Below, piece after piece: positions 3,086 to 48,193 of a DNA stretch of 52,532 nt; position 1 is the first letter of the stretch, and each line of letters begins with the position of its first letter. A program made the translations under genes and the position numbers. Source of the stretch: Alphaproteobacteria bacterium (GTDB lineage Bacteria > Pseudomonadota > Alphaproteobacteria > UBA6615). The stretch spans positions 1-52,532 of the forward strand of contig JAJFIX010000028.1 in assembly GCA_021774575.1 (NCBI GenBank). The letters are read 5' to 3'. The notes below the pieces were generated by a model. It did no database searches and was not told where the DNA came from. It saw only the letters and a list, made by a program, of their open reading frames with translations.

Positions 3086-3162
3086 TGGTGGGCCCGGCAG
3101 GACTCGAACCTGCGACCAAACCGTTATGAGCGGTTCGCTCTAACCAACTGAGCTACAGGCCC
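3086..3162 (-). tRNA. tRNA with anticodon CAT, probably tRNA-Ile2 (k2C) or elongator tRNA-Met
   Basis: Read on the minus strand, the cloverleaf is complete. The 7-bp acceptor stem GGGCCTG/CGGGCCC has one T-G pair. The D-arm has GCTC...GAGC, the anticodon stem is AACCG/CGGTT around loop CTCATAA, the T-arm has GGTTCGAGTCC, and an encoded CCA tail lies at 3086-3088. The anticodon is CAT. It is not initiator tRNA, because the first pair G-C is intact. The GGGCC acceptor suggests the lysidine-modified isoleucine tRNA, but I cannot exclude elongator Met. It lies downstream of rpoD on the same strand. Confidence 0.93.
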
Positions 3163-8130: not shown

Positions 8131-8387
8131 TGTACTCCATCATGCCACCAGGCGTTGGACCGTATCCGATTCGCATTGCCATGGCAAACCGGAAGCCAGT
8201 CATAACATACTGAATTATAACGATTTTTTAGTTTTAATCTACTTGACCCAATCTCTTAGCTAGCTTATGAAACATCGCGTGCGCGAACGAACTCTTTCGC
8301 CCAGCCTGCCGCCCGGCCTGCCGGTGCTTTTTCATGAGCGCACGAGGTATAAGACCAAAAAACCACAATGAACATGACCAGGTTCGG

Positions 8388-9599
8388 ATGACCCAAGACA
8401 CCAACACCCGGCACAAACAAGCAACCGCCAACCAGACAGACCGGCCAGCCTGGGCGACGGGCGCCTTAGTAATGGCCGACGGGGCCGTCTATTGGGGGCG
8501 CGGGATCGGTCGAACGGGAACGGCTGTTGGCGAGGTGTGCTTTAATACCTCGCTCACCGGTTATCAAGAAATCTTGACCGACCCCTCCTATGCGGGCCAA
8601 ATAATCACCTTCACGTTCCCCCATATCGGCAATGTCGGTACAAATATTGAGGATATGGAGGCGACCAATACAGCGGCGCGGGGGTGCATTTTGCATGCGC
8701 CAGTCACCGATCCTAGCAATTGGCGATCAGACACACATCTCGATAAATGGTTGAAAAATATGAACCTTGTGGGGCTGACAGGTCTCGATACAAGGTCCCT
8801 CACCCACGCAATTCGAGACAGTGGGGCGCCTATTGCCTCAATCGCGCATTTTGGTGTTGCAGACACCAACATTGATTTGCTGCGCAATAACGCCGCCGAC
8901 TGGCCGGGGCTTGAAGGAATGGACCTGGCCGCCGAGGTAACCACGCGCCAGACATATCATTGGAACCAGGCGGAGTGGAGCCTGGGCGACGGCCATACAA
9001 ATGCGCCCGCCTCCCGGCATAAAGTTGTCGCGGTGGATTTTGGCGCTAAGCACAATATTCTTCGTTGCCTGGCCAGTGGGGCGTGCGACGTTACCGTGGT
9101 CCCGGCGAGCGCTTCGGCCGAAGAGATATTGGCCCATGAGCCCGATGGAATTTTCCTGTCCAATGGCCCCGGCGACCCGGAGGCAACTGGAATTTATGCC
9201 GTCCCAACGGTCAAAAAACTACTTGAGACGGACCTGCCGATATTTGGAATTTGCCTTGGCCACCAGATACTTGCCATAGCCCTGGGGGCCAAAACAAAAA
9301 AAATGCATCTCGGCCATCGGGGTGCGAACCATCCCGTTAAGGATTTGACAACCAAAAAGGTGGAAATCACCAGTCAGAACCATGGTTTTGTGGTGGACGA
9401 GACGAGCCTGCCCGATGGTATCGCCGCAACCCACCGGTCGTTATTCGATGGGAGCCTGGAAGGGCTGGCAGTCGATGGTCGGCCAGTATTTTCGGTCCAA
9501 TATCATCCTGAAGCTTCGCCGGGTCCACGCGATAGCCATTATTTGTTTGACCGGTTTATTGCCCATATGGACGCAACGCCCAATGGGCAGATTTTCTAA
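8388..9599 (+). CDS. carA: carbamoyl-phosphate synthase small (glutaminase) subunit CarA
   Basis: A 403-residue subunit that hydrolyses glutamine and channels ammonia to CarB for arginine and pyrimidine synthesis. The N-terminal domain has GEVCFNTSLTGYQEILTDPS in two blocks and ITFTFPHIGNVGTN. The C-terminal class I amidotransferase has the nucleophile in GICLGHQILA, the SNGPGDP motif, and the His/Glu pair in YHPEASPGP. The ATG at 8388 is chosen because family proteins begin shortly before the WATGALVMADG segment. An upstream ATG at 8334 would add 18 unconserved residues. It is divergent from yqeY across a 257-base gap and is followed by carB after 235 bases. Confidence 0.97.
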   Translation: MTQDTNTRHKQATANQTDRPAWATGALVMADGAVYWGRGIGRTGTAVGEVCFNTSLTGYQEILTDPSYAGQIITFTFPHIGNVGTNIEDMEATNTAARGCILHAPVTDPSNWRSDTHLDKWLKNMNLVGLTGLDTRSLTHAIRDSGAPIASIAHFGVADTNIDLLRNNAADWPGLEGMDLAAEVTTRQTYHWNQAEWSLGDGHTNAPASRHKVVAVDFGAKHNILRCLASGACDVTVVPASASAEEILAHEPDGIFLSNGPGDPEATGIYAVPTVKKLLETDLPIFGICLGHQILAIALGAKTKKMHLGHRGANHPVKDLTTKKVEITSQNHGFVVDETSLPDGIAATHRSLFDGSLEGLAVDGRPVFSVQYHPEASPGPRDSHYLFDRFIAHMDATPNGQIF

Positions 9600-9834: not shown

Positions 9835-12800
9835 ATGCCCAAGCGACACGACATTAAATCAATCATGATTATCGGCGCTGGCCCGATCATTATCGGCCAG
9901 GCGTGCGAATTCGATTATTCCGGAACCCAGGCAGTCAAAGCCCTCAAAGAAGAAGGCTTTCGGGTGGTCCTGGTCAATTCCAATCCGGCGACGATTATGA
10001 CCGACCCGGATTTGGCCGACGCGACCTAGATAGAGCCGATCACCCCAGAATTCGTTGCCCGCATTCTGGAAATAGAGAAACCCGACGCGCTCTTGCCGAC
10101 CATGGGTGGCCAGACGGCCCTCAACACGGCGCTGGCGCTCCATAAAGACGGCACGCTGGATCGTCTAGGCGTCGAGATGATTGGCGCGCGGCCCGCAGCA
10201 ATTGAAAAAGCCGAGGATAGATTGGCGTTCCGCGAGGCGATGGACAGGATCGGGCTCGATTCCCCTCTCAGCTTCATGGCGCGCTCGATGGATGACGCGC
10301 AAGCCGCCCTTGACCATGTCGGTCTGCCGGCGATCATCAGGCCGAGCTACACATTGGGCGGCACCGGCGGGGGCATTGCTTATAACCGAGACGAATATAG
10401 TGCCCAAGTCGAAGCCGGCCTTGCCGCCTCGCCGACCAGCGAAGTTTTAGTCGAAGAATCGGTTCTCGGCTGGAAAGAGTTTGAGATGGAGGTGGTGCGC
10501 GACCAAGCCGATAACTGCATCATCATCTGCTCGATCGAAAACATTGATCCGATGGGCATTCACACCGGCGACAGCGTAACCGTCGCGCCGGCCCTCACCC
10601 TGACCGACAAAGAATATCAGATCATGCGCAACGCCTCGATTGCGGTGCTGCGCGAAATTGGGGTTGATACTGGTGGCTCCAATGTCCAGTTCGCCGTCGA
10701 CCCGGAAACCGGGCGCCTGATCATTATCGAGATGAACCCGAGGGTCTCGCGCTCCTCCGCCCTCGCGTCGAAAGCAACCGGATTTCCAATTGCCAAAATT
10801 GCGGCAAAACTGGCGGTCGGCTACACTCTTGATGAACTCGATAACGATATCACCGGTGTCACTCCGGCCAGTTTCGAGCCGACCATCGACTATGTGGTTA
10901 CCAAAATTCCACGGTTCACCTTTGAAAAGTTCCCCGGTACCGATGCGCTGCTCACCACCTCGATGAAGGCGGTCGGTGAGGTCATGGCAATCGGGCCGAC
11001 CTTTGCCGCGTCCCTGCAAAAAGCCCTGCGCTCGATGGAAACCGGCCTGACCGGATTGAACGAAGTGCACATCCCCGGTGCGCAAACAGTGCCGATAGAG
11101 ACCGACGCGCTACGCGCCGCCCTTGGTGCACCGACACCGGATCGCATCTTAACAATCGCCCAAGCGATGCGGCATGGTCTGGGCAATGACGATATTCATG
11201 CGGCAACAAAATTTGACCCCTGGTTCCTTGATCGCATTCGTGAAATCGTTGAGGTCGAGGCCGGATTGCGCCGGGCGGGGCTGCCAAAAAATCGCGATAG
11301 TGATGCCACCACCCTGGGGCTTGCCGATATCAAGGCCATGGGATTTTCCGACGTTCGGATCGCCGAACTCACGGGCGTCAATGAAACAGATGTTGCCGAC
11401 GCCCGGGTCGCGCTGGACCTATATCCAACCTATCGGCGGATCGACACATGCGCCGGCGAATTTCCCAGCCGCACGCCCTATATGTATTCGACCTATGGGC
11501 AGAGTTTTACCGCAAACGCGTGCGAATCTAATCCCACAGAGGCCGAAAAGATCATCATCCTCGGGGGTGGTCCGAACCGGATAGGCCAGGGTATCGAATT
11601 TGATTATTGCTGCTGTCACGCAGTGTTTGCCCTGACCGAGGCCGGCTATGAAACAATCATGGTTAATTGCAACCCGGAGACGGTTTCAACCGATTACGAC
11701 ACTGCCGATCGGCTGTATTTTGAGCCGCTGACAGGCGAAGACGTTATCGAGATCGCCCGTATTGAAGCGGCCAAAGGCACCCTTAAGGGCGTCATTGTGC
11801 AGCTCGGCGGGCAGACCCCGCTGAAACTCTCCCATTTATTGGAAAAAGCGGGGATTCCGATCCTTGGCACGACACCCGACGCGATTGATTTGGCCGAGGA
11901 TCGCGAACGATTTCAAAAATTTGTGCGGGATTTGGGTTTACGCCAGCCCAATAACGGCACGGCGAAAAGCGGCGCGCAAGCCGCCAGGATTGCAGCGGAA
12001 ATCGGGTATCCGGTGCTGTTGCGGCCCTCCTATGTGCTCGGCGGTCGGGCCATGGAAATTGTCCATGACGAAGCCGCGCTCAATCGCTACGTCACCGAGG
12101 CGGTTCAAGTTTCCGGCGACAGCCCGGTGCTCGTCGACAGCTATCTATCCAACGCCATTGAGGTCGATGTCGACGCCTTGTGCGATAAAGACGGCGCCGT
12201 CTACGTGGCCGGCATCATGGAGCATATCGAAGAGGCGGGCATACATTCCGGCGATAGCGCCTGTTCCTTGCCCCCCTATTCTCTGCCCGAGGAAATCATC
12301 GCAAAAATCCGACAACAGACCAAGCAACTTGCCCAGGGTCTCAATGTCGTCGGATTAATGAATGTGCAATTTGCCGTCAAGGAAGACGAGCTCTACCTGA
12401 TCGAAGTTAATCCGCGCGCCAGCCGGACCGTTCCTTTTGTCGCCAAGGCAACAGGTGTGCCCATCGCCAAAATTGGCGCAAGATTGATGGCCGGGGAGAC
12501 CCTGGCTGATTTCGATTTGGATGGAAGCGGAGATGGGCCGAACGAAATACGCCATGTCGCGGTCAAAGAAGCGGTTTTCCCATTTGACCGGTTTCCCGGT
12601 GTCGACCCGGTGTTGGGCCCGGAAATGAAATCAACCGGTGAGGTCATGGGCCTCGACACGGATTTCGGCCGGGCATTTGCTAAATCCCAGATCGGCGGCG
12701 GCCAGAAAGTACCGACGGAGGGGATGGTATTTATTTCGGTTCGTGACACCGATAAACCGACAACGGTCGATCTTGCGACACGGCTCATTGCCCTTGGCTT

Positions 12801-13134
12801 TAGCATTACCGCGACCCGTGGCACCGCCGCCTATCTTGCAGACCGAAACATTGAGGTCACGCAAGTCAACAAAGTGCTCGAAGGGCGCCCCCATATTGTC
12901 GACTTGATGAAAAACGGTGACATACAGCTCGTTTTCAATACGACGTCGGGGGTTCATGCGCTCTCGGACAGTTTTTCGCTGCGCCGCACGGCGCTGACGG
13001 AAAATATTCCCTACTACACGACCATCTCCGGGGCCCGGGCCAGTGTTGCCGCAATTAAGGCGGTCGCGGACGGGGTTCCAAGCGGGGGGCTTGAAGTTGC
13101 GCCCTTACAGTCGTATTTTAGCAACTCGTATTGA
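9835..13134 (+). pseudogene. carB: carbamoyl-phosphate synthase large subunit CarB, interrupted by an in-frame TAG
   Basis: The full CarB frame is 1100 codons, starting [17 protein letters not shown]. It encodes two ATP-grasp halves ([10 protein letters not shown] in the first; [16 protein letters not shown] in the second), the oligomerisation region between them, and a C-terminal MGS-like allosteric domain (about residues 950-1095). The only defect is TAG at 10027-10029, between DLADAT and IEPITPEF, where homologues I know have Tyr (ADATYIEPITPE). The frame continues unchanged on both sides; the pieces are 9835-10029 and 10030-13134. The first downstream ATG is at 10093, and starting there would lose about 86 residues of the first nucleotide-binding fold. 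It may be a real nonsense allele, a sequencing or assembly error, or read-through. The absence of any other lesion argues that the mutation, if real, is very recent. Confidence 0.93.
10027..10029 (+). other. in-frame amber codon in carB
   Basis: TAG in the carB reading frame, codon 65, replaces the expected Tyr codon (TAT or TAC), so a single third-base change explains it. TAG ends several ordinary genes in this window (the VOC protein at 27825 and the redoxin at 38545), so there is no sign of genome-wide amber recoding. Confidence 0.9.
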
Positions 13135-13245
13135 TATAGAGATCTGATTCCCCTGATTTCAGCCGTTTTGCCCCGCAAGTTCTTGTGCGGGAAAACTTCC
13201 CGGCGTCAGGGCAGGTCGTTTTTTTTGGCTTTTGGAATATGTGAC

Positions 13246-13719
13246 ATGGAAAAGGCACCAATTACCCAAGGTGGGCATCAACGTCTTCAGGGCGAGTTGA
13301 AGACCCTGAAAACCGTCGAACGCCCGACGATCATTAAGGCCATTGCCGACGCGCGCGAGCATGGCGACCTGTCGGAGAATGCCGAGTATCATGCGGCGCG
13401 CGAGCGCCAATCCTTCATCGAAGGCCGCATCATGGAACTCGAGGACTCGATTAAGCGTGCCGAGATCATCGACGTGACCAAGATCAAGGGTAAGACCGTC
13501 CGCTTCGGCGCGACCGTCAAGCTGGCCGACGAGGAAAGCGATAAACAATCGACCTATCAGATTGTCGGCGCCTTAGAAGCCGAGATCAGCGAGGGTCAGA
13601 TTTCCATTTCGTCCCCCCTCGCCCGGGCTCTGATCGGTCGCGAGACCGGCGACAGTGTCGAAGTCGAAAGCCCCCGCGGCACCCGCTACTATGAGATCGT
13701 CAAGGTTCAGTTTAAGTAA
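13246..13719 (+). CDS. greA: transcription elongation factor GreA
   Basis: A 157-residue factor that rescues backtracked RNA polymerase by stimulating transcript cleavage. The N-terminal antiparallel coiled coil (residues 1-75) has GGHQRLQGELKTLKTVERP and the acidic-tip segment REHGDLSENAEYHAARE. The C-terminal FKBP-like domain ends in SPLARALIGRETGDSVEVE. The ATG at 13246 gives the standard family start; the open frame extends 26 codons upstream without conservation. It follows carB by 111 bases on the same strand, a conserved alphaproteobacterial arrangement. Confidence 0.97.
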   Translation: MEKAPITQGGHQRLQGELKTLKTVERPTIIKAIADAREHGDLSENAEYHAARERQSFIEGRIMELEDSIKRAEIIDVTKIKGKTVRFGATVKLADEESDKQSTYQIVGALEAEISEGQISISSPLARALIGRETGDSVEVESPRGTRYYEIVKVQFK

Positions 13720-15797: not shown

Positions 15798-16823
15798 TTA
15801 GCCACGAGCCTGTCTGATCTTGTAGTCCTCCTGGCGTGCCATAATGGCCCAAGCGATGCGGGCCGTTTTGTTGGCCATCGCCACGGTCACCTTGCGCGGC
15901 GGCTTTTTATCGAGCCGGGCGGCGGCCCAGGCCTCGTCAGGCGTTCTTTGTTTCTTCACAACGCTCAGCATCGATGTGGCGCCGACGACAAGCAATCGAC
16001 GTATATACCGATCCCCCTGTTTCGATATGCGACCGAGCCTTTCTTTACCGCCGGTCGAGTTTTGTCGGGGCACGAGCCCCAACCACGCGGCTAGCTGCCG
16101 GCCCGACTTGAACTGGCTCGGGTCGGTGATGGTAGCCGACAGGGCCGATGCGGTGATCGGTCCGACCCCTGGTATCGTCGCCAACCGCCTGCTCTCCGGA
16201 TTTTTGCGATGCCAGCGCACGATCTCTTTGTGCAGACGATCGATCCCAACCTTCAAGTCCCGCAGTTGATCGACGATTGTCGCAAGCGCAATTGCAGCGA
16301 CTGCGGGTAATCCGTTCTTCTCGCTGTCCTCGACGAGGGTCGCCAGCTTGGCAACGTTCTCGATGCCCTTGGCCACCACGATGCCGAACTCCGAGTGGTG
16401 TCCGCGTAGCGCGTTGATCAGCACGGTGCGTTGTCGGATCATCAGGTCGCGGGTCCGGTGGAGCATTAACACGCCCTGCTGTTCCTCACCCTTGGGCGGA
16501 ACAAAACGCATCGACGGTCGCGTCACGGCTTCGCAGATCGCTTCCGCGTCCGCCGCGTCGCTCTTGCCGCGCTTGACATAGGGCTTGACGTAATGCGGTG
16601 GCATCACGCGAACCTTATGGCCCAGTGATTTGAGCTCGCGCGCCCAATAATGGGATCCACCGCAAGCCTCCAATCCGACAAGACACGGAGACAAGGCGGA
16701 GAAAAATGGCAGCATGGCGGCGCGTCGTAGCTGCTTGCGGATAACGACCTGCCCGTCGCTGTCTACGCCGTGCACCTGGAAAACGTTCTTTGCGAGATCA
16801 AGTCCTATCGTGGTAATCGTCAT
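15798..16823 (-). CDS. IS110-family transposase
   Basis: A 341-residue transposase from the ATG at 16823, which has GGGAG about nine bases upstream. The N-terminal RuvC-like DEDD domain starts TTIGLDLAKNVFQVHGVD (first catalytic Asp), with KSDAADAEAICEA further on supplying later acidic residues. The C-terminal Transposase_20 domain holds IPGVGPITASALSATI (helix-hairpin-helix-like) and the catalytic-Ser region DPSQFKSGRQLAAWLGLVPRQ in two blocks, with GGKERLGRISKQGDRYIRRLL after it. Length and motifs are intact, so the element may still be active. It sits between two accessory gene groups. Confidence 0.96.
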   Translation of the reverse strand: MTITTIGLDLAKNVFQVHGVDSDGQVVIRKQLRRAAMLPFFSALSPCLVGLEACGGSHYWARELKSLGHKVRVMPPHYVKPYVKRGKSDAADAEAICEAVTRPSMRFVPPKGEEQQGVLMLHRTRDLMIRQRTVLINALRGHHSEFGIVVAKGIENVAKLATLVEDSEKNGLPAVAAIALATIVDQLRDLKVGIDRLHKEIVRWHRKNPESRRLATIPGVGPITASALSATITDPSQFKSGRQLAAWLGLVPRQNSTGGKERLGRISKQGDRYIRRLLVVGATSMLSVVKKQRTPDEAWAAARLDKKPPRKVTVAMANKTARIAWAIMARQEDYKIRQARG

Positions 16824-16889
16824 TGTGGATGGCTCCCTGTTAATGAAGTCTTTTGACAACTCCATTATGCCGATCAAACGTCGGCGGTG

Positions 16890-16903
16890 GGGGCCGTCCA
16901 CAC
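16890..16903 (-). repeat. IS right subterminal inverted repeat
   Basis: GGGGCCGTCCACAC on the plus strand is the partner of the left repeat. It lies 66 bases upstream of the transposase start. Confidence 0.7.
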
Positions 16904-16939: not shown

Positions 16940-17054
16940 GGAGGTTTATTGAATTGAGTCGACTGTACCCCGCAACCCGCACCCCAGAATCCCGACATGT
17001 CGGAGATTGGAGATAAAACTTGGCGCGTTGCGCGCCGGGCGGATAAAAACACCC

Positions 17055-17969
17055 ATGCGCCTAAAAACGAGCCTCGATCATCTGCCGGCGATCAAGCGCC
17101 GCGACCTTGAACGGGCCGCCGAGATTCTGCACCAGGAGTTCGACGAGGCGATCGCCTATGGCACCACCCAACATAAAAAAGACGGACGGATATTAAAGAT
17201 TATCCTATTCGGCTCCTATGCCCGTGGCGGCTGGGTCGACGACCATCGGGGCGGCTATTACAGCGATTATGATCTGCTGGTGATCGTCAACCGCGAGCAG
17301 CTCACCGATGTTGCCGAATATTGGTACAAAGCCGAAGACCGCCTAAACCGCGAGCCGACAATCAAGCCCCAGGTCAATTTCATCGTTCACTCATTGCAGG
17401 ATGTGAACGGGCAACTGGCCGAGGGGCGGTACTTCTTCTCCGATATCGTCAAGGACGGCATCGCCCTCTACGACCTGAAGGGCCACAAGCTAAAGGACCC
17501 GAAGCCGCAGACGCCGGACGCAGCATTGACGTTGGCGCGGACATATTTCGAAAAAGGCTTGCCTCGGGCACAAGGGTTTTTGAAGACGGCCATTTCATCG
17601 AAGGACGATCCGGAACCCGCACTCCAAAACATCGCAGCCTTCCTACTTCATCAAGCCACAGAAAGCGCCTACCACACACTGCTATTGACCCTCACCCTTT
17701 ATGTTCCCCAAACCCATAATATCGAATTCCTGCGCGGTCTTTGTGAAGACCGGGTGGCGGACTTAATCGACGCCTGGCCCCGAGATCTGCGACGCCACCG
17801 TCGCATGTTCCAACTGCTCAAGCGCGCCTATATCGAGGCCCGCTATTCCGAGCATTACGAAATCACCCGCGAGGAACTCGAATGGCTGGAAGGATGTGTG
17901 ACCGACCTGCAAACGCGGATCGCGACGGCATGCGAGGCGCGGTTAATGGAGATGTCCGGGGAGGTTTAA
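17055..17969 (+). CDS. fused nucleotidyltransferase (MNT) - HEPN domain protein
   Basis: 304 residues from the ATG at 17055; an in-frame TTG at 17007 would add 16. The N-terminal domain is a Pol-beta-type nucleotidyltransferase: LFGSYARGGWVDD and YSDYDLLVIV supply the GS motif and the two metal-binding Asp residues (about residues 52-80). The C-terminal half (about 165-290) is helical and resembles HEPN, ending with an Arg-rich stretch and EARYSEHYEIT, near the usual HEPN R-x4-6-H site. Separate MNT and HEPN genes form toxin-antitoxin pairs in which MNT modifies and silences the HEPN RNase; here both are in one chain. It lies in the accessory island, directly after the IS. It is known as a domain combination, but the function is not established. 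Confidence 0.85.
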   Translation: MRLKTSLDHLPAIKRRDLERAAEILHQEFDEAIAYGTTQHKKDGRILKIILFGSYARGGWVDDHRGGYYSDYDLLVIVNREQLTDVAEYWYKAEDRLNREPTIKPQVNFIVHSLQDVNGQLAEGRYFFSDIVKDGIALYDLKGHKLKDPKPQTPDAALTLARTYFEKGLPRAQGFLKTAISSKDDPEPALQNIAAFLLHQATESAYHTLLLTLTLYVPQTHNIEFLRGLCEDRVADLIDAWPRDLRRHRRMFQLLKRAYIEARYSEHYEITREELEWLEGCVTDLQTRIATACEARLMEMSGEV

Positions 17970-37855: not shown

Positions 37856-38545
37856 ATGGACTATAATTACGAACGCTACAAGATGTCGAATTACGACTTG
37901 TCGGAATTCCACGGGCCCCGGGCCGGCGAAGAGGCATTTGATTTTACCGTCCACAAAATGGATGGAACAGAGGTCAAACTTTCCGATTATCGCGGCAAAT
38001 GGTTGGTTATCGAAACGGGCAGCCTGACCTGCCCGATGTATGTGAAGAACGTCAGCAAACTCAATAAAATGAAAGAACAATATAGCGACGTTGAGTTCCT
38101 AATGATCTACGTGCGCGAGGCGCATCCGGGCTCCCGAATTAAACCCCATACCGATCTCGCCGACAAGATAGGGCGCGCCCAAGAAACCAAAGACGACTAT
38201 AAAGACGACCGCGAATTTCTCGTCGACGGGGTAGACGGGGCGATGCACCAAGCCTATGGCAGTTTGCCCAACATGATTTATGTCGTGAACCCGGAGGGCA
38301 AGGTGATTTACCGGGCCGACTGGGCCTTCGCCAACCGCATTGAAAACGTGCTGAACAACCGGGGCGAACTCAACACGGTTGAGCATATCGCCCATATGGG
38401 CGCAGTCCCTTGGATTTTTATTCCGGTGACGTTCAAAGGCGGCTGGAACGCCCTATGGGATTTGCTTGCCGCGACACCGATGATCCTTTGGGCCCATATC
38501 AAGGTCGATATCGCAAATCTTTTTAAGAAAAAATCCGCCGACTAG
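37856..38545 (+). CDS. redoxin of the iodothyronine-deiodinase-like family
   Basis: 229 residues. The thioredoxin-fold core (about 30-165) has VKLSDYRGKWLVIETGSLTCPMYV, given in blocks, with LTCP at the position where deiodinases carry selenocysteine. FLMIYVREAHPGSRI is a strong match to the deiodinase IY-EEAH signature, and IYVVNPEGKVIYRADWA ends the fold. Bacterial members usually have Cys here; the activity (peroxidase-like, dehalogenase or other) is not known. The C-terminal 60 residues are hydrophobic (WALWDLLAATPMILWAHIKV-like) and may be membrane-associated. A single Cys is visible in the active region. Good ribosome binding site (AGAGG). Confidence 0.88.
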   Translation: MDYNYERYKMSNYDLSEFHGPRAGEEAFDFTVHKMDGTEVKLSDYRGKWLVIETGSLTCPMYVKNVSKLNKMKEQYSDVEFLMIYVREAHPGSRIKPHTDLADKIGRAQETKDDYKDDREFLVDGVDGAMHQAYGSLPNMIYVVNPEGKVIYRADWAFANRIENVLNNRGELNTVEHIAHMGAVPWIFIPVTFKGGWNALWDLLAATPMILWAHIKVDIANLFKKKSAD

Positions 38546-47636: not shown

Positions 47637-47770
47637 GCGATGTCCTCTGTAATTTGCTAGCTTGCTTTTTTGGTCATGCCGCGCGCTAGATCCAGTGCGC
47701 GCTAAATCCAGTGCGCGCCAAATCCAATGAATGCAATTGTGCCCGTGAAGTAAACAAGATAGAAGTCGCC

Positions 47771-48193
47771 ATGATCCAAGTCACACCCACCATCGCCATC
47801 GCCGAGGCCGAATTCACATTTACCTATATTCGTGCCCCCGGCCCCGGCGGCCAAAATGTGAACAAAGTCGCCAGCGCCGCCCAATTACGTTTTGACGCGG
47901 CCAATTGTCCGGCAATCGTTCCAGCGGTTTTTGCCCGGCTCCGCACGGCGGCTGGCCAGCGGATGACGGCAAAGGGCGAGATCGTCATCACCGCCCATCG
48001 ATTTCGCTCGCAAGAGCGCAACCGACAAGACGCCATCGACCGGCTCACCGACTTGATCCAGGGTGCAGCTGCCGTGCCAAAGCATCGGCGACCGACCAAG
48101 CCAGGCAAGGCTGCCAAACAAAGACGCCTCGATACCAAGCGACAGCATTCACAAATAAAGAAGGGACGACAACGGGTTGGCCCGGATAGTTAA
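47771..48193 (+). CDS. arfB: alternative ribosome-rescue factor ArfB (peptidyl-tRNA hydrolase, YaeJ)
   Basis: 140 residues from the ATG at 47771; upstream in-frame codons are unconserved. The N-terminal RF-1 catalytic domain has the GGQ motif in APGPGGQNVNKVASAAQLRF. The C-terminal tail is basic (KHRRPTKPGKAAKQRRLDTKRQ in blocks), and enters the empty mRNA channel. It releases stalled ribosomes without a stop codon. Its stop overlaps the convergent secreted protein gene by 4 bases. Confidence 0.95.
   Translation: MIQVTPTIAIAEAEFTFTYIRAPGPGGQNVNKVASAAQLRFDAANCPAIVPAVFARLRTAAGQRMTAKGEIVITAHRFRSQERNRQDAIDRLTDLIQGAAAVPKHRRPTKPGKAAKQRRLDTKRQHSQIKKGRQRVGPDS

Follow-up and report, generated by a model that had tools for sequence, protein, structure and literature searches.

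The window, that is, the whole 52,532-nucleotide stretch of DNA analysed, carries a carB gene interrupted by a single in-frame amber codon (TAG) at codon 65, a position occupied by tyrosine in all 100 of the homologous loci compared that cover it. The most likely reading, which we hold with middling confidence, is that the TAG is a consensus error or a minority-strain base of a draft assembly. It would then be a one-base oddity confined to this genome record, carrying no decoding signal; the consensus base, whether a wrong call or taken from a minority strain, would misrepresent the working gene of the organism, which would have a Tyr codon at position 65.

The carB reading frame extends for 1100 codons from MPKRHDIKS to its terminal stop, and translation revealed neither a second internal stop nor a frameshift, which bears out the lone TAG in an otherwise open frame described in the earlier note (Table 1). 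With the TAG read as Tyr, the product scored 1462.9 bits against TIGR01369 (cut-off 1027), matching the whole model (positions 1-1051 of 1052), and 1701.9 bits against NF003671, and it aligned with residues 1-1058 of E. coli CarB, for which a structure has been solved (1bxr). The gene thus resembles known carB genes in its full-length match and in adjoining carA, and differs from them in the TAG, owing to which the frame is not uninterrupted, and in family-only residues at 379, 388, 392 and 534. GC3 was 0.67 on the 5′ side of the stop and 0.65 on the 3′ side. The neighbouring carA and greA are intact, as had been claimed.

Table 1. Features of the carA-carB-greA region (positions in the window)
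Feature	Position	Strand	Evidence
carA, carbamoyl-phosphate synthase small subunit, intact	8334..9599	+	TIGR01368 451.8 bits (cut-off 307); Pfam
carB, carbamoyl-phosphate synthase large subunit, one in-frame TAG	9835..13134	+	profiles, translation
In-frame TAG, codon 65	10027..10029	+	Tyr in 100/100 homologous loci covering the column
In-frame TTG ahead of the ATG at codon 90	10093	+	sequence
First in-frame ATG 3′ of the TAG, codon 90, possible restart	10102..10104	+	sequence
greA, intact, frame from first possible start	13168..13719	+	Pfam GreA_GreB_N and GreA_GreB over cut-off

Elsewhere in the window, positions 17007-17966 (+) encode a single protein in which a HEPN domain comes after a nucleotidyltransferase domain, a pair more often found as two genes of a toxin-antitoxin module. 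A serine recombinase preceded by a DUF2924 protein (810-2908, +) is encoded close to tRNA-Met (3086-3162), and the region seems to belong to an integrated element. An IS110-type transposase is encoded at 15798-16901 (-).

The comparison set for CarB comprised 103 homologous loci, of which 80 came from named genome contigs and 23 from the family; three of the 103 stop short of the column of codon 65. The other 100 all have Tyr there (70 TAT and 30 TAC), in agreement with what the earlier note had stated of homologues. TAG was seen at this column in no other CarB among the 100 covering loci, none of them from a congener, and these loci likewise lacked the sign of conserved read-through, namely an identically placed stop in another genome. 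The smallest codon change relative to the family relatives is one base, TAT to TAG. TAT or TAC at this codon in related genomes had been proposed as evidence against a real nonsense codon; such codons were indeed found, but in distant relatives only: among near-complete CarBs the highest protein identity was 75%, and one 368-residue fragment reached 81%. One compared contig titled Candidatus Marinimicrobia (L047) carries a CarB 68% identical to this one, and may be misnamed or misbinned.

In a class-wide survey of 289 genomes, 226 had a strong CarB match, and an internal stop was present in one of the best 150 of these 226 by score; the row of the present genome scores below those 150. The CarB of genome G258 (L236, G258:C5) has TAA at codon 3, at bases 7-9 of its contig, which is probably an assembly-edge fault. 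Internal stops flagged in the CarBs of G001, G009 and G021 each proved to be the gene's own terminal stop. A search of IMG/VR for a copy of the TAG site gave no match, as expected for a chromosomal gene.

A profile search of the genome itself returned one full-length CarB, the copy marked "1 TAG". The other matches (45-62 bits) were partial and in other frames and were taken for ATP-grasp paralogues, so that a second carB, one of the ways out suggested in the earlier note, found no support. PyrB is intact, as is a second carbamoyltransferase that scored 163.1 bits on the PyrB model, below the cut-off, and was taken for an OTCase; no carbamate kinase over cut-off was found in the genome. Given that PyrB and the second carbamoyltransferase are intact and no carbamate kinase passes its cut-off, a long-standing loss of carB seems unlikely, and since the users of carbamoyl phosphate have been kept, a loss of its source, if real, would be recent. 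A fixed null allele of carB would be costly.

These observations bear on the reading ranked second, a possible but clearly less probable one, in which the TAG arose very recently as a genuine nonsense mutation in the strain or population that was sequenced. The gene would then yield a 64-residue fragment, arginine and pyrimidines would be drawn from the surroundings (uracil via Upp), and the organism would be a fresh auxotroph whose carB is not yet decaying. The otherwise intact carB is consistent with such an allele, whereas the retention of the enzymes that use carbamoyl phosphate argues against it. A pyrimidine salvage route, which it had been suggested to look for, is represented by Upp over its cut-off, as such an auxotroph would need; Upp is likewise present in 11 of 14 control genomes, however, and is therefore no sign of auxotrophy and uninformative on this point.

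In a tree of 99 CarB rows, 85 of them ingroup, the root-to-tip distance of this CarB (0.752) ranked 73rd of the 85 ingroup rows (median 0.815); the protein is not fast-evolving, and the tree gives no measurable decay of carB, which counts against a true nonsense allele. Three of its changes, S379A, E392A and K534R, fall in columns invariant in all other covering rows, and a fourth, R388P, in a near-invariant column where one other row also differs. S379A, R388P and E392A cluster within 14 residues (379-392; window 10969-11010) in a comparison of about 100 CarBs, and residues 388 and 392 correspond by alignment to 389 and 393 of E. coli CarB, in a strongly conserved stretch. With the TAG counted, this CarB has 4 singletons; among the 103 other rows one has 7, one has 4 and 80 have none.

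The departures at 379, 388, 392 and 534 would fit relaxed constraint under a nonsense allele, but they are matched by other proteins of the same genome. Family-only residues numbered 16 in this CarB, tied with another row at 16 (19 rows), 11 in CarA against 8 in the next highest row (16 rows), and 49 in RpoB (L221, G000:C22:8088-12221) against 24 (13 rows). The RpoB count, twice the next highest, points to a long and unusual lineage, and the departures in CarB may, without certainty, reflect that lineage rather than decay of carB. Decay specific to carB was accordingly not upheld as an explanation of the four changes. The sole control that sets CarB apart is that the CarA and GreA of the window have no singletons in the 103-row comparison. 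As regards the marks of a pseudogene, then, the tree shows no acceleration and the frame no further stop or frameshift, while four invariant or near-invariant columns are changed in a genome whose other proteins depart too. In one family member, the RpoB locus (G018:C19:9058-13190) falls into ten separate matches, with several TGA codons inside some of them, and that assembly is probably poor.

Other interrupted genes were sought with a codon-usage scan, which ranks stops flanked on either side by open sequence of coding character in the same frame. The scan covered 422 kb, about an eighth of the genome, is coarse, and has frameshifts outside its scope. It gave 1663 such stops, of which the best 60 were viewed and 34 taken on, carB included; carB and one other TAG headed the ranking. 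When the 33 other same-frame joins in the 422 kb were read through, none gave a Pfam match spanning the stop. Thirteen of them had at least one family over cut-off, on one side or as separate matches on either side (for example, flavin reductase then ABM; IF-1 then Maf; COX2 and cytochrome c then COX1; two complete ETF domains; two overlapping COX3 matches), and the remaining 20 had no Pfam family, several being antisense to known genes. The RpoB, PyrB, PyrB paralogue, Upp and RF1 of the genome contain no internal stops. At L161:13982-15373 (-), two COX3-like frames lie side by side in the same frame, match overlapping parts of the COX3 profile, and adjoin COX2 and COX1.

Between an error and a true nonsense allele, the order given here rests on the prior expectation for a draft assembly (3,504,625 bases in 46 contigs, 96.93% complete) and on assumed error rates. 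The interrupted frame is certainly that of carB, yet a single stray base is enough to produce one such codon. By arithmetic under uniform substitution, 280 of the single-base changes open to carB, 9891 in all, create a stop; an assumed, unmeasured rate of 1e-5 errors per base would predict about 0.1 nonsense codons for 422 kb and 0.9 for the genome. The error reading is favoured by the unbroken conservation of Tyr in the 100 covering loci, by the constraint on what is the sole full CarB, by intact CarA, PyrB and second carbamoyltransferase with no carbamate kinase over its cut-off, and by the draft state of the assembly, the single substitution from TAT and the expectation of about one nonsense codon per genome; the internal stop of G258 likewise looks like an assembly fault. 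Against it, the TAG sits 10 kb into the contig sequence, away from an edge, and the 33 joins contained no second interrupted gene, so that nonsense errors are not visibly abundant in the assembly. A base-call error at codon 65 would also leave the changes at 379, 388, 392 and 534 unexplained, although other proteins depart as well. Among the outcomes listed in the earlier note, which included sequencing error and auxotrophy by a nonsense allele, a consensus error and a recent nonsense allele are both compatible with the data; we infer an artefactual base here and not a genuine recent mutation. If so, a single base of the consensus is enough for a key gene to appear dead, and automatic annotation would label the genome an arginine and pyrimidine auxotroph. 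If the allele is true, a fresh auxotrophy has been caught ahead of gene decay. The codon would bear on translation only in the unlikely case of read-through.

Read-through, ranked third and improbable, would make the TAG a true amber codon that a near-cognate tRNA, or a suppressor not seen here, decodes often enough to give some full-length CarB. A sole CarB under normal constraint is what such decoding would preserve. The codon directly 3′ of the TAG is ATA, and we know of no read-through context of this kind; RNA structure 3′ of the stop did not exceed that of shuffled sequences (z = -0.15), and the lack of the codon in any other CarB among the 100 covering loci also argues against read-through. 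The genome has 44 Rfam tRNA matches. ARAGORN, applied to the loci of 30 of them and to sampled stretches holding the rest, assigned anticodons to 43, plus tRNA-Sec; the 44th match is partial, and its anticodon loop was read by eye as GGT. None of the 43 typed tRNAs and tRNA-Sec has a CTA anticodon, and the amber suppressor suggested in the earlier note is unsupported to that extent. The set lacks tRNA-Ile(GAT) and tRNA-Ala(TGC), which are usually sited in rRNA operons; the assembly is therefore not quite complete, and the absence of a CTA tRNA is no proof. RF1 is intact and over its cut-off, which also weighs against read-through. An elaboration in which the sole carbamoyl-phosphate synthase stands behind a genuine amber and is made by read-through, termination setting the rate of arginine and pyrimidine synthesis, is hardly to be expected.

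Belinky et al. 2021 (PMC7918605) describe internal stops in genes under purifying selection as frequent in bacteria, which lends read-through some plausibility, and trace internal stops to annotation artefacts, to sequencing errors, to pseudogenes and to functional genes with premature stops. The present case resembles theirs in having a single stop while the remainder of the gene is constrained. The authors kept only stops common to at least two genomes in order to exclude sequencing errors, a filter that the stop described here, present in one genome alone, would fail, and they concluded that shared internal stops are mostly short-lived. Our literature search, judged by titles and the beginnings of abstracts, gave nothing on point for carB amber alleles, and the terms used found nothing on premature stop codons in genomes binned from metagenomes or on read-through in bacteria; a further search turned up a paper on a carA disruption.

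Restart of translation, ranked fourth and very improbable, would begin at the ATG 25 codons 3′ of the TAG or at the TTG ahead of it, giving a protein without its first 89 or 86 residues, respectively, whose carbamate-phosphorylating half would still make some carbamoyl phosphate. The presence of the in-frame ATG is consistent with this, as is the title of Serre et al. 1999, cited in PMC6245113, according to which half of a yeast carbamoyl-phosphate synthetase makes carbamoyl phosphate. The part lost is nonetheless strongly conserved and belongs to the first ATP-grasp half; no Shine-Dalgarno-like purine-rich stretch, and so no clear ribosome-binding site, was seen by eye close 5′ of the ATG; and the full first half stays constrained, which restart alone would not require.

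A general reading of TAG as an amino acid, by reassignment or as pyrrolysine, has the carB codon alone in its favour and was rejected as practically negligible, since, of 216 long frames in the window and 20 sampled stretches (422 kb), 53 end in TAG (87 in TGA, 76 in TAA), RF1 is intact, no CTA anticodon occurs among the typed tRNAs, no PylS in the genome is over cut-off (best match 23.9 bits against 178.15; one of 14 control genomes passes), no second interrupted gene appeared among the joins, and no TAG join sent to Pfam gave a family match across the stop. The earlier note had likewise taken TAG for a normal stop elsewhere and had argued from this against general recoding; both points held. 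The window also encodes, at 47711-48193 (+), a small RF-1-domain protein of 160 residues, like ArfB-type ribosome rescue factors. A deiodinase-like protein with a thioredoxin fold (37856-38545, +) has the likely active site TCP, with Cys, and this Cys-type protein occurs in the same genome as tRNA-Sec (G000:C45:271629-271718, +).
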